From a virus, in IMG/VR virus record IMGVR_UViG_3300047548_001480, positions 1 to 26,128 of that record: a stretch of 26,128 nt of DNA; one strand, written 5' to 3'. Shown here piece by piece: positions 4,300 to 20,130 of this stretch. Made by a program: the position numbers and the translations under genes. The notes beneath the pieces were generated by a model. That model was not told where the DNA came from. It was given only the letters and a program-made list of their open reading frames with translations, and searched no databases. Position 1 is the stretch's first letter; the number at the start of each line of letters is the position of its first letter.

Positions 4300-4573
4300 G
4301 GCAATCAACCTTTTGGACAGCCTGAAGAAACTGGCGGAGTGGCAGCGCGTGGTCGCCGTGGCGGACAAGGTGCCCGAGCTCGAGCGGCGCATCGCCCTGC
4401 TCGAAAGCCGGATCGGCGGAGCCCCGAAGTTCGAGACCTGCCCGAGCTGCGGGATCGGCCGCTGGCACAAGGTCAAGAGCCAGCCCAACAGGACCTTTGG
4501 CAAGGTGGGCGGACTGGATGTGACCTACGGCTGCAACCACTGCAACTACACCGAGGTCAAGGTGGAGACCTGA
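4298..4573 (+). CDS. small zinc-ribbon protein
   Basis: A 91-residue protein starting MAINLLDSLKKLAEWQRV. Residues about 25-45 form a coiled-coil-like helix (VPELERRIALLESRIG). The C-terminal half has CPSCGIG and CNHC, a CxxC...CxxC zinc ribbon typical of small phage and nucleic-acid-binding proteins. The start has GGAAAAAG upstream. It is divergent from the gene at 4299 with overlapping start codons, and convergent with the cro-like gene six bases downstream. Likely function: a zinc-stabilised nucleic-acid or protein-binding factor; the partner is unknown. Confidence 0.65.
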   Translation: MAINLLDSLKKLAEWQRVVAVADKVPELERRIALLESRIGGAPKFETCPSCGIGRWHKVKSQPNRTFGKVGGLDVTYGCNHCNYTEVKVET

Positions 4574-4578
4574 CGGCA

Positions 4579-4854
4579 TCACACCCCCTGCCCGGCCGCA
4601 GCCGGTTCGATATCGACACGGGCCGGCGTGGTGGCCGGGACGGTGCCGCGCAGGTAGCCGAGCTTGTCGGCCAGGTCGGGGCGGAGCTCCTCGCAGGTGA
4701 CGGCGCCGGCGGTGTGGCGCTCGATCTCGATGGCGCGCTCGAGCGGGATGCGCGTGAGGCCCGCCGACCACTGATGGACCGCGCCCTGCGTGACCCCCAG
4801 CGCGCGCGCCAGGTCCGCTTGCTTGTGGTCTGCGAAGTAAGCCTTGAGGTTCAT
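4579..4854 (-). CDS. Cro/YdaS-like phage regulator
   Basis: A 91-residue protein starting MNLKAYFADHKQADLARALG. Residues about 12-45 form a helix-turn-helix (QADLARALGVTQGAVHQWSAG) of the Cro/YdaS type, followed by IPLERAIEIERHTAGAVTCEELRPDL, usual in YdaS-family phage Cro proteins. It is the first gene of the leftward early operon and opposes the S24 repressor gene. The ATG lies only seven bases after a TAAAGT -10 box that overlaps an operator, so the mRNA would be essentially leaderless. It probably favours lytic development by competing at the shared operators. Confidence 0.8.
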   Translation of the reverse strand: MNLKAYFADHKQADLARALGVTQGAVHQWSAGLTRIPLERAIEIERHTAGAVTCEELRPDLADKLGYLRGTVPATTPARVDIEPAAAGQGV

Positions 4855-11725: not shown

Positions 11726-12033
11726 TGGACCCGCGATTTCAGGACCCGATGTGGCTGGCCGGCAACCGCGATGTCGAGATCCCGTTCGAGCGCGCCTGCG
11801 CTGTCGCGCTGCGCCGCCAGCAGGAGCGGATCAACGTCCTGCAGGATGCGCTGGGCCTGGTCGAGCTTTGGATGCAGCGCGAGCGCGAGGTGCTGGTGGC
11901 CTGCTGCCGGAATCATGACGGATCGATGGCACCAGACGACACCGAAACGATCGAGGAACACGACAGCCGGCTGCGCCTGGTCATGACTGCGCTCCAGCTG
12001 TCGCGCGCACCGGTACCGGAGGTGGCGCGATGA
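11725..12033 (+). CDS. 102-residue hypothetical protein
   Basis: Starts MDPRFQDPMWLAGNRDVEIP at ATG 11725 (TGATG overlap). In-frame GTG codons at 11719 and 11722 stand closer to the GGGGAGG site and could be used. A long helical stretch (RACAVALRRQQERINVLQDALGLVELWMQREREVL) predicts a coiled coil. It ends by ATGA overlap with the next gene. No family recognised. Confidence 0.6.
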   Translation: MDPRFQDPMWLAGNRDVEIPFERACAVALRRQQERINVLQDALGLVELWMQREREVLVACCRNHDGSMAPDDTETIEEHDSRLRLVMTALQLSRAPVPEVAR

Positions 12034-12287
12034 GCCGGCCCGAACCCATCCACCGCTACGCGCTGCGGCTGGCCTTTGCCGACCTGGCCGCGCGCGACGC
12101 CAGCCTGCTGCCCATGTCCCTCGAGGTCGCGCTGGCGCATCCGCATTGGGGGCTGGTGCTGAGGGTGCATGCGAGGAAGTTTGCGCACCGAGACACCAGG
12201 CCCATTGTCATCAATGGGCTTCCCAAACCACTGAGACCCATCATGCGCTACACTCTGCCCCAGGTGCTTGAAAACACCTGTAGCTAG
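12030..12287 (+). CDS. 85-residue hypothetical protein running into a regulatory RNA
   Basis: Starts MSRPEPIHRYALRLAFADLA, overlapping the previous stop. Basic, with a helical N-terminus. Its last codons lie inside the hairpin and C4-like element at 12261-12316, so ribosomes ending here could affect folding of the antirepressor leader. Function unknown. Confidence 0.5.
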   Translation: MSRPEPIHRYALRLAFADLAARDASLLPMSLEVALAHPHWGLVLRVHARKFAHRDTRPIVINGLPKPLRPIMRYTLPQVLENTCS

Positions 12288-12316
12288 CGGTTGAGCCGCC
12301 CCGTCAGTGCGGCTTT
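12261..12316 (+). ncRNA. candidate C4-like antisense RNA before the antirepressor
   Basis: The hairpin CAGGTG-CTTGAAAA-CACCTG (12261-12280) is followed by GTAGCTAGC and GCGG-TTGAG-CCGC, then GCCGC/GCGGC with a short T run. TTGAAAAC (12268-12275) and GTAGCTAGC (12280-12288) are complementary, in order, to GTTTTCAA (12415-12422) and GCTAGCTAC (12404-12412) in the same leader. P1/P7/P22 c4 RNAs control ant genes through just this kind of split complementarity. Assigned by architecture, not by a covariance search. Confidence 0.5.
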
Positions 12317-12403
12317 GTCATGTCCGAATGCTTTCCGGCGCAGCGCCTGCTGCGTCGAGTCTGGTTTCGGGCAGATGGGGCCATCCGCGAGGACGCCCGC
12401 CCG

Positions 12404-12422
12404 GCTAGCTACGGGTTTTCAA
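12404..12422 (+). promoter_or_regulatory. complementary target of the C4-like element
   Basis: GCTAGCTAC-GG-GTTTTCAA can form 19 pairs with 12268-12288, counting CC 12277-12278 with GG 12413-12414, leaving two single-base bulges. It lies about 70 bases upstream of the antirepressor start. A second copy of TTGAAAAC at 12447-12454, in a CGCGT/ACGCG hairpin, could compete for the same target. Confidence 0.5.
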
Positions 12423-12494
12423 CATCTGCCCACCCGTTCCGCGTGCTTGAAAACGCGCGGCCCGGATCAACCAGTCTCAGCTAGGAGCATGACC

Positions 12495-13262
12495 ATGGCA
12501 CACGCCAACACCCCGGGCAGCAACGCCCTCACCTTCCAATCCACCAGCCTGGATGTCGTCATGCGCGACGGCCAGCCGTGGCTAAGGGGCGCGCAGATTG
12601 CGCTAGCCCTGGGCTACCAAAACCCGGCTAATGCGATCAAGGACCTATACAACCGCAACCAGGACGAGTTCACCGACCGCATGACCACCGTGGTCAAGCT
12701 CGACACCGCCGGCGGCGCGCAGGACACGCGCATCTTTAGCCTGCGCGGCGCGCACCTGCTGGCCATGTTCGCCCGCACCGCCAAGGCCGCCGAGTTCCGG
12801 CGCTGGGTGCTCGACGTGCTGGACCACGAAGTCGAGCAACCGGCCGCCTTGAAAGCCACCCCGGCACCGGAGACCCGACTGGCGCTGACCGGCGCCGCCC
12901 AGCTCGGCGCCGAGGTGCAGGCCGAGGCCCTGGCCCAGCTGGCCCACGACGAATGGCTCGAAGGCAGCCGCTGGCTGCTGAGCTTCGTGAACGACGAATA
13001 CAGCCCTGGCGAATACCGCCCCCACGTCAAGCGCGTGGAGTCCGGCACCTTCATCACCACCTGGCGAAGGCTGGTCGACAACATCAGCGACCCCGCCATG
13101 ATGCTGAACGCCGACGAGCTGGGCCTGATGGCCCGCGCCTGCCTGGCCGAGCTGGAGCGCCGCGCCGCCTACGCCCGCCAGCTCGAGATGGCAGCCCACC
13201 GGGCCAAGACGGCGCCCAGCGCCAAGCCCAGCCCGCTGCCGCAACAACCGCGACTGGCCTGA
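12495..13262 (+). CDS. BRO-N domain antirepressor
   Basis: A 255-residue protein beginning MAHANTPGSNALTFQSTSLD. TAGGAG is seven bases before ATG 12495; the ATG at 12489 is too close. Residues about 12-110 form a BRO-N domain: VVMRDGQPWLRGAQIALALGYQNPANAIKDLY, then FSLRGAHLLAMFARTAKAAEFRRWVLDVLD. The C-terminal half (about 125-240) is helical with many Ala and Arg. Proteins of this type in temperate phages bind and inactivate CI-like repressors, opening lytic growth. The leader holds a C4-like complementary pair, which would explain how the gene is kept silent in the lysogen. Confidence 0.8.
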   Translation: MAHANTPGSNALTFQSTSLDVVMRDGQPWLRGAQIALALGYQNPANAIKDLYNRNQDEFTDRMTTVVKLDTAGGAQDTRIFSLRGAHLLAMFARTAKAAEFRRWVLDVLDHEVEQPAALKATPAPETRLALTGAAQLGAEVQAEALAQLAHDEWLEGSRWLLSFVNDEYSPGEYRPHVKRVESGTFITTWRRLVDNISDPAMMLNADELGLMARACLAELERRAAYARQLEMAAHRAKTAPSAKPSPLPQQPRLA

Positions 13263-13306: not shown

Positions 13307-13546
13307 ATGGCACCCACCGTTTTCCGCGAAGGCCGCTTCCGCTTTTTCTTCTTCTCCCGCGAGGAGTCGCGCATCCATGTGCATGTCTCGCACCCGGACG
13401 GCGAAGCGAAGTTCTGGCTGACACCCACGGTCCATCTGGCGACCTCGACCGGGCTGGACCCGCGACAGTTGCGCGAGGCGCTGGAGCTCATCGAAACCCA
13501 CCTGACGGAGATCAACCATGCCTGGCACAGTCATTTCGGCGCCTGA
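13307..13546 (+). CDS. DUF4160 protein
   Basis: A 79-residue protein starting MAPTVFREGRFRFFFFSREE. RFRFFFFSREESRIHVHVSHPDGEAKFWL, then an LREALELIETHLTEINHAWH helix, is the DUF4160 signature. DUF4160 genes are very often followed by DUF2442, as here with a 29-base overlap, and the pair has been suggested to be a toxin-antitoxin-like unit. A GGAG lies about 12 bases before the ATG. The 44-base gap after the antirepressor has no clear promoter. Confidence 0.8.
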   Translation: MAPTVFREGRFRFFFFSREESRIHVHVSHPDGEAKFWLTPTVHLATSTGLDPRQLREALELIETHLTEINHAWHSHFGA

Positions 13547-13769
13547 AGTCACAAACATCTCCCGGCACGGCCTCTGGCTGCTGCGCGAGGATGAAGAGTT
13601 GTTCCTGCCGTTCGAGCAGTTCCCCTGGTTCCGTCAGGCCACCGTTGAGCAGATCGCCCATGTCGAGGCGCCCGGGCCGGATCACCTCTACTGGCCCGAG
13701 CTCGACATCGACCTCTCCGTCGAGTCCATCCGACACCCCGAGGCGTTCCCGCTGATCAGCCACGGCTGA
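13518..13769 (+). CDS. DUF2442 protein
   Basis: An 83-residue protein starting MPGTVISAPEVTNISRHGLW. The signature elements are LWLLREDEELFLPFEQFPWFRQATVEQI and the closing HLYWPELDIDLSVESI, which match DUF2442. It overlaps the DUF4160 gene and is followed by two terminators, so the pair ends this transcript segment. Probable small DNA- or protein-binding partner of the DUF4160 protein; role unproven. Confidence 0.8.
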   Translation: MPGTVISAPEVTNISRHGLWLLREDEELFLPFEQFPWFRQATVEQIAHVEAPGPDHLYWPELDIDLSVESIRHPEAFPLISHG

Positions 13770-18522: not shown

Positions 18523-20130
18523 GTGACAGGTCGGGTCTATTCCTACATGCGGTTCAGCGATCCGCGCCAGGCCAGCGGGCACAGCAGCGAGCGGCAGATG
18601 ACCTATGCGCGGCGCTGGGCGCAGGAGCACGGACTGGCGCTAGACGAGTCGCTGACGCTGCGCGACGAGGGCTTGTCAGCCTACCATCAGCACCACATCA
18701 AGTCGGGCGCGCTGGGCGTCTTTCTGGCGGCGGTCGAGCAGGGCAAGATCGCGCCAGGGTCGGTCCTGGTCGTCGAGGGCCTGGACCGGCTGTCGCGCGC
18801 CGAGCCGATCCAGGCGCAGGCCCAGCTCGCGCAGATCATCAATGCCGGCATCAGCGTCGTGACCGCCAGCGACGGAAAGGTCTACAGCCGCGAGCGCCTA
18901 AAGTCAAACCCGATGGACTTGGTCTACAGCCTGCTGGTGATGATCCGAGCCCATGAGGAATCCGACACAAAGTCTAAGCGCGTGCTGGCCAGCATCCGGC
19001 GCCAGTGCCAGGGCTGGCTGGCCGGCACCTACCGCGGGTTGATCCGCAACGGCAAGGATCCGGTCTGGGTGCGTCGCATGGATGACGCCTGGGAGCTGAT
19101 CCCCGAGCGGGTCGAGGCCGTGCATGAGGGCCTGCGGCTCTACCGGATCGGCTACGGCGCCAAGCGGATCATTGAGTCGCTACAGGAGAAGGGCTTGTCG
19201 CTGACCGGGCGCGGCCCGCAGGCGCTGCAGATCTACCGGCTGATCCGGCAGCGCGCGCTGCTGGGGGAGAAGGAGATCGAGGTCGATGGCGAATCGTTCA
19301 GGCTGCCCGGCTACTACCCTGCCCTGCTGACGCCCGCCGAGTGGGAAGACCTGCAGGTGTTGGCCAGCGGGCGCGGGCGGCGCAAGGCGTCAGGCCCGGT
19401 GCCGCACATCCTGACCGGCATGGGAATCACGGTCTGCGGCTACTGCGGCCGGGCCATGGTGGGCCAGAACATCGGCACCCGGCGCCGCGACGAGGCTGGA
19501 CGCATCCACGACGGCAACCGGCGCCTGCACTGCACCAGTTACGCGCACGGCGGCTGCACGGTGTCGGGCTCGACATCGGTGGCGCCTTTCGAGCGCGCGC
19601 TGCTGCACTACTGCAGCGACCTGGTCAACCTGCAGGCGCTCTATGGCCAGGACCGAGGCGCCGCACCACGCGCCATGCTGGCCAAAGCCCGTCAGCAGCT
19701 GCAGGAGGTCGAGGCCAAGCTGCGGCGCCTGACCGACGCCATGCTGGCAGCCGAGGATGATGGCGTGCCGATGGTATTTGCCCGCAAGGCGCGCGAGCTC
19801 GAGACAGAGCAGCAGCAGCTGATCGAGACCATAGAGGCCGCCGAGCGCGAGCTGGCCGCCACGGTGCGCGCGGATCTGACGGGCGTCGACCAGAAGTGGC
19901 GCGAGCTGGCCGAGCTCGTCGAGGCGCAGGACGTCGAGGCACGCCTGCAGGCCCGCCAGCTGGTGGCCGACACCTTCGAGCGCATCGTGATCTATCACAG
20001 AGGCATCCGGCCACCAGCCGATGATCACAAGGGGCCGATGGACATGATGCTGGTGGCCAAGGGCGGCAACGGCCGCGTCTTGCGCCTGAGCCGTGCGGGC
20101 GACCTGGTCGATGCCGAGGATGTGGAGTGA
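18523..20130 (+). CDS. large serine recombinase (phage integrase)
   Basis: A 535-residue protein starting at GTG 18523 with GGGGTGA just upstream. The N-terminal resolvase domain (about 5-150) has YMRFSDPRQ with catalytic Ser12 and EGLDRLSRAEP with its conserved Arg. A recombinase domain follows (about 170-290), then a zinc ribbon (CGYCGRAM ... HCTSYAHGGC, about 305-350) and a long coiled coil (about 385-450, AKARQQLQEVEAKLRRLTDAML, LETEQQQLIETIEAAERELAA). This is the order of large serine integrases such as phiC31 and Bxb1. It would integrate and, with a directionality factor, excise the phage. Phage genes flank it on both sides. Confidence 0.9.
   Translation: MTGRVYSYMRFSDPRQASGHSSERQMTYARRWAQEHGLALDESLTLRDEGLSAYHQHHIKSGALGVFLAAVEQGKIAPGSVLVVEGLDRLSRAEPIQAQAQLAQIINAGISVVTASDGKVYSRERLKSNPMDLVYSLLVMIRAHEESDTKSKRVLASIRRQCQGWLAGTYRGLIRNGKDPVWVRRMDDAWELIPERVEAVHEGLRLYRIGYGAKRIIESLQEKGLSLTGRGPQALQIYRLIRQRALLGEKEIEVDGESFRLPGYYPALLTPAEWEDLQVLASGRGRRKASGPVPHILTGMGITVCGYCGRAMVGQNIGTRRRDEAGRIHDGNRRLHCTSYAHGGCTVSGSTSVAPFERALLHYCSDLVNLQALYGQDRGAAPRAMLAKARQQLQEVEAKLRRLTDAMLAAEDDGVPMVFARKARELETEQQQLIETIEAAERELAATVRADLTGVDQKWRELAELVEAQDVEARLQARQLVADTFERIVIYHRGIRPPADDHKGPMDMMLVAKGGNGRVLRLSRAGDLVDAEDVE

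Follow-up and report, generated by a model that had tools for sequence, protein, structure and literature searches.

The leader of the antirepressor gene in the analysed stretch of viral DNA (26,128 nucleotides, positions 1 to 26,128 of IMG/VR record IMGVR_UViG_3300047548_001480; hereafter the window) very likely carries an immunity module of the C4 type, in which an antisense RNA would block translation of the antirepressor. By every feature that could be tested, the module appears to work like C4. It is a new, divergent representative of this kind, and by score it belongs neither to the Rfam C4 family nor to sRNA-Xcc1. In dozens of relatives the letters differ and yet still match, and we therefore consider a C4-like RNA switch, of the sort known from phage P1, very probable.

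Three units in the leader of the antirepressor gene

A preceding sequence-only reading had paired two halves of this leader, and the complementarity was recovered in full: TTGAAAAC (12268-12275) and GTAGCTAGC (12280-12288) on one side face GCTAGCTAC (12404-12412) and GTTTTCAA (12415-12422) on the other, and GCTAGCTACAGGTGTTTTCAA, the reverse complement of 12268-12288, aligned with GCTAGCTACGGGTTTTCAA (12404-12422) gives 19 pairs interrupted by two one-base bulges, as reported. For 12369-12440 paired with 12258-12316 the predicted duplex energy is -57.0 kcal/mol, compared with -39.7 +/- 4.5 kcal/mol for dinucleotide shuffles, none of which was as good (0/2000). The surroundings were also correctly described as the end of an upstream gene and a BRO-N antirepressor: the stop codon TAG (12285-12287) of ORF 12030-12287 lies inside the element, and the downstream product is assigned to Bro-N by Pfam (1.9e-14) and to the anti-repressors by PHROG (3.6e-45). 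No family was recognised for the 85-aa product of the upstream ORF. Absent from the earlier description is the target a2/b2, a third copy in which TTGAAAAC occupies 12447-12454 and AGCTAG, within the Shine-Dalgarno region, occupies 12479-12484. The features of the leader are as follows.

12030-12287, plus strand: upstream ORF, 85 aa, with its stop in b1
12249-12254, plus strand: possible -10 box TACACT (weak), read from the sequence; similar hexamers there in relatives
12261-12280, plus strand: a1 hairpin CAGGTG-CTTGAAAA-CACCTG, perfect 6-pair stem (predicted fold); same position in relatives
12268-12275, plus strand: a1, TTGAAAAC, mostly within the hairpin loop
12281-12288, plus strand: b1, TAGCTAGC, single-stranded and fully complementary to the loop of antisense hairpin 2
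12295-12319, plus strand: terminator-like hairpin GCCGC-CCCGTCAGT-GCGGC, then TTTGTC (short T run)
12336-12357, plus strand: further hairpin between first and second units; relatives have a hairpin too, in other letters
12369-12435, plus strand: putative C4-like antisense RNA (predicted fold; sRNA-Xcc1 match of 33.9 bits; model R1 and its matches)
12369-12377/12423-12431, plus strand: outer stem (predicted fold)
12378-12398, plus strand: hairpin 1 (predicted fold)
12399-12416, plus strand: hairpin 2 with an 8-base loop (predicted fold)
12404-12411, plus strand: b', the hairpin-2 loop GCTAGCTA, partner of b1 and b2
12415-12422, plus strand: a', GTTTTCAA, covering the 3' end of hairpin 2 and the bases behind it, partner of a1 and a2
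up to 12422, plus strand: unpaired strand TTTTCAA after hairpin 2 (predicted fold)
12432-12434, plus strand: ACC directly after the outer stem, resembling an RNase P substrate (sequence sign)
12439-12460, plus strand: a2 hairpin, loop CTTGAAAA as in a1; a2 itself at 12447-12454
12479-12484, plus strand: b2, AGCTAG, complement of the loop core, overlapping the Shine-Dalgarno AGGAG (12483-12487)
12495-13262, plus strand: antirepressor gene with Bro-N domain, 255 aa (Pfam, PHROG)

Folded alone (12369-12440), the second unit reaches a predicted minimum energy of -36.1 kcal/mol and forms an outer stem within which lie two hairpins and an unpaired stretch, the arrangement that characterises C4. It follows from this anatomy that the loop a1 faces the single strand a' and that the single strand b1 faces the loop b'. 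As expected for C4, the RNA lies on the same strand as the Bro-N gene at 12495 and just upstream of it, and its loop and single strand are complementary both to a1/b1 and to a2/b2 at the antirepressor start, the matched bases amounting to 8/8 for each of a1, b1 and a2 and to 6/8 for b2. The start itself is most likely ATG 12495, with AGGAG 12483-12487. Because pairing of the antisense with just the a2/b2 leader is energetically no better than in shuffles (753/2000 as good), the a2/b2 target is argued from its position and from the relatives.

A 54-aa ORF (12320-12484), which recalls short coupled ORFs such as orf45 of Gifsy, runs across the antisense unit, and its stop codon falls in the Shine-Dalgarno of ant; no ribosome site was seen for it and it may be due to chance. 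A simple consensus scan of the window leader found no full sigma-70 site. Directly 3' of the antirepressor gene, a DUF4160 and a DUF2442 gene form an overlapping pair (13307-13769). Elsewhere in the window, an int-alpA RNA (RF02996) was detected on the minus strand at 2902-2968 (42.3 bits, above the cut-off), and L105 also carries one at the same locus as a module; the segment 18613-19028, inside ORF 18523-20130, shares 76.7% identity with the serine recombinase from Burkholderia phage JC1.

Polarity of the module and comparison with C4 loci

Neither the Rfam C4 model (RF01695, threshold 45 bits) nor c4-2 matches in the window, and C4 gives no match in 12150-12560 even at E<=10; the low C4 score that had been named in advance as speaking against a C4-like element was thus obtained. 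The models c4-a1b1 (RF03163) and isrK (RF01394) likewise match nowhere in 12150-12560. With sRNA-Xcc1 (RF02221) the second unit scores 33.9 bits (E 2.8e-4 for 411 bases), which is below the gathering threshold of 53 bits, and under the same model near relatives score 33.9-39.0 bits and the loci L117 and L118 65-68 bits. Nothing was returned by a DNA search of a phage collection with 12200-12540, by the exact 17-base pattern in viral contigs or by a plasmid search with a module relative.

Five Bro-N relatives with Rfam C4 loci (pRA2, Aaphi23, Vibrio O395, PhiR26_1 and a Thalassospira plasmid) contain c4-a1b1/isrK, then a C4 above the cut-off and then the gene, in the same order as the window, where the hairpin 12295-12319 closes the a1/b1 unit just where C4 loci have the isrK terminator. 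In these C4 RNAs both the loop of hairpin 2 and the single strand behind it find a match upstream and in most cases downstream, with b2 at the Shine-Dalgarno in several, as in the C4 locus L016 (loop TCCGATAGAG, b2 CTCTATCGGAGG at the Shine-Dalgarno). Like C4 of P1 and P7 (RF01695, clan CL00128), the window RNA stands upstream of ant on the same strand, combines an outer stem with two hairpins and a single strand, has its b' and a' matched by an upstream and a ribosome-site copy, and shows RCC after the outer stem; unlike C4, it is missed by the C4 model, its outer stem has 9 instead of about 17 pairs, the loop has eight bases and the a/b letters are others. With sRNA-Xcc1 (RF02221, no clan), its best Rfam match, it shares the three-way fold and the a1-b1 / RNA / a2-b2 order of the family loci, but it lacks the long hairpin 1 (AATACAA...GGGGAATA) and scores under the cut-off. 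At the level of architecture, to which the comparison was confined, it also resembles P4 CI with seqA and seqC and IsrK / STnc1160 / orf45-anrP of Gifsy-1, with one match upstream and one downstream; in both systems a processed RNA matches sequences on both sides of itself in the immunity or antirepressor leader (PMC4825925). P4 differs from the window in acting via transcription termination of replication genes.

As to kind, the C4-like proposal of the sequence-only reading, a split antisense control of the antirepressor, is upheld, but the polarity has to be turned around on account of the fold, the order and the Rfam-recognised C4 loci. It had taken 12255-12330 as a short antisense RNA that silences a target at 12404-12422. 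Because the second unit holds the C4 place and the C4 fold and the first unit holds the a1b1/isrK place, we assign the antisense RNA to 12369-12435 and regard 12261-12319 as the a1/b1 target. Although the pairing is symmetric and IsrK, the Gifsy-1 RNA at the first-unit place, does act in trans as an sRNA (PMC4825925), the original polarity is very unlikely and was rejected on fold, order and comparison with C4 loci: it is the second unit that folds like C4, ends in an RNase-P-like tail and shows similarity to Rfam families, the loop that is matched at the ribosome site sits there as well, and what the first unit looks like is the a2/b2 target and not its complement.

Covariation among window-type relatives

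The sRNA-Xcc1 search gave matches in 57 of 398 genomes of one phylum, and three of these matches (L050-L052), exactly of the window's length, align with it across the whole module. A covariance model (R1) made from these three sequences and the window was run on 250 genomes of one bacterial family and matched at 51 places, spread over 30 of the genomes. It also matches sRNA-Xcc1 loci, the c4-2-like locus L015 (29.4 bits) and the genuine Rfam C4 of L140 (22.1 bits, E 0.001, at the same place as a 45.3-bit C4 match), so that the window type is connected with sRNA-Xcc1 as well as with the C4 clan.

In 43 of 50 window-type modules, whose sequences are related so that all counts represent non-independent events, the downstream leader of the module contains an exact complement to the six-base core of its b loop, whereas on swapping between modules with different cores this holds for 52 of 2414 pairs; upstream, the figures are 37/50 and 58/2414. 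The a' core is matched upstream in 46/50 modules versus 31/2074 swapped, and downstream in 41/50 versus 34/2074. All but one of the matched b2 cores (42/43) end in AG or CG of (A/C)GGA, i.e. at the ribosome site, and RCC follows the outer stem in 47 of the 50 relatives as well as in the window. Matched examples are the L090 loop CCTGCGTG with CACGCAGGAA and the L091 loop GCTACGTA with CACGTAGGAG. Where a genome has many copies, as in two cases, most loops fit their own leader only (cross matches 3/72 and 4/30). The 50 modules contain 36 distinct b loop cores, which points to many independent changes, the kinship of the sequences notwithstanding. Compensatory change in the relatives is therefore strongly indicated, and the loss of complementarity that had been put forward as a counter-sign was not seen.

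These patterns also bear on two other explanations. An inverted repeat acting as DNA (an operator), or complementarity that arose by chance because the sequence is GC-rich, would accord with the high GC and with TAGCTAGC, itself a near-palindrome, but none of the 2000 shuffles was as good and the letters vary freely among relatives while pairing is kept in 36 different cores; on shuffles and covariation, chance repeat and DNA operator were rejected as extremely improbable. A cis attenuator would do without a separate antisense RNA, the halves pairing inside a single leader transcript and thereby switching a terminator or the ribosome site; it would agree with their position on the same strand and transcript and with the strong predicted pairing. 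However, it needs neither a third copy a2/b2 at the Shine-Dalgarno that co-varies with the loop in 43/50 modules nor an RNase-P-like stem and tail, and C4 is known to act in trans, P4 CI being a processed RNA factor (PMC12197685, PMC4825925); we give it little chance compared with a C4-type module.

Concerning the gene context, the nearest modules are for the most part followed by small uncharacterised ORFs and not by antirepressors; in the alignment A6 (e.g. L090, L102, L106, L112, L131), which covers window-type modules of one bacterial family, they mostly stand before a protein family of ~70 aa with ..DPIQLHADAHNALSMALHYL..GARRKAVQALAAL... The nearest Bro-N relatives in the family searched with R1 are without a window-type module and show canonical C4, sRNA-Xcc1 or no recognised module, and Bro-N relatives from viral and genome contigs are mostly too distant for the same leader. 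Lone antisense units with no clear a1/b1 or a2/b2 nearby were seen at L121 (993-1069, plus strand) and L128 (2128-2202, minus strand), ~600 bases from an intact module; they may be remnants or candidate trans-acting orphans. In a Desulfovibrio MAG (L004, 4594-4665), a C4-like module with no Rfam match lies directly before a Bro-N gene, with targets at about 4454-4480 and 4680-4697 and a separate sRNA-Xcc1 copy ~500 bases upstream.

Proposed mechanism and reach of the C4 type

While anatomy, predicted fold, complementarity, covariation and ribosome-site position were computed here, we infer that the module is transcribed and processed by RNase P, in which direction it acts and what a1/b1 does by analogy with C4 of P1/P7 (PMC12197685) and with P4 CI and IsrK (PMC4825925). 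The leader transcript would start near 12261, the a1/b1 unit would be made first, and much of the transcription should stop at the hairpin 12295-12319. Transcripts that read through would carry the folded RNA 12369-12435. C4 is a substrate of RNase P, and in the window this enzyme would free the end of the RNA at 12368/12369. The freed RNA would present b' in a loop and a' as a single strand and pair with a2 and b2 in the ant leader; with b2 covering the Shine-Dalgarno, ant translation would be blocked, and the untranslated message may then end early, as in P1 and P4. The upstream a1/b1, mimicking the target, may aid termination when paired, like seqA of P4, or soak up the antisense, like IsrK, and would thereby tune the tightness of ant repression in the lysogen.

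sRNA-Xcc1 was described in 2010 (PMC2996969). Located upstream of symE, it forms with this gene the integron cassette reported as most widespread in Xanthomonas, an arrangement described as "suggesting a divergent regulatory mechanism" (PMC12444791), and in Xylella sRNA-Xcc1, isrK and C4 occur side by side (PMC12189769). Judged from its sequences, this functional orphan is very probably of the C4 type. Across 64 non-redundant loci, nearly all of them sRNA-Xcc1 matches and the window included, the hairpin-2 block scores on average 9.16 against its own upstream flank (swapped 6.87) and 7.57 against its own downstream flank (swapped 6.43), values reached by 0/5000 permutations in either case. Among 51 scanned genes directly downstream are seven Bro-N (including the window), five SymE toxins, three Rha and one each of P22_AR_N, KilA-N, HSDR_N and AlpA. 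The loop complement is clear at the symE Shine-Dalgarno of L020, L061 and L040, and weak or missing at the ribosome site of L055, L068 and L163. For a C4-type RNA serving several kinds of genes, symE among them, the complementarity is well supported, and the function is predicted. A link between sRNA-Xcc1 and C4 was not found in the literature searched; a 2011 paper on sRNA-Xcc1 lay outside this search, so novelty is unproven.

Besides, at L075, which precedes a type I restriction subunit, the sRNA-Xcc1 loop partly matches the Shine-Dalgarno of the HSDR_N gene. One genome has three tandem, near-identical sRNA-Xcc1 modules ~280 bases apart (L161, L174, L177), an array resembling one reported in Xylella.

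With moderate confidence, we propose a C4 superfamily that would comprise C4, the window type and all sRNA-Xcc1: portable same-strand antisense RNAs with a hypervariable, always-matched ribosome-site loop, which would reach beyond antirepressors to SymE, as an antitoxin RNA (including the Xanthomonas integron cassette), and to restriction genes. C4-type control would then be far wider than the Rfam C4 family, and sRNA-Xcc1 would receive a testable role, its loop masking the Shine-Dalgarno of the downstream gene. Specificity loops that change fast and yet stay matched would make related elements distinct in immunity, as P1 and P7 are.
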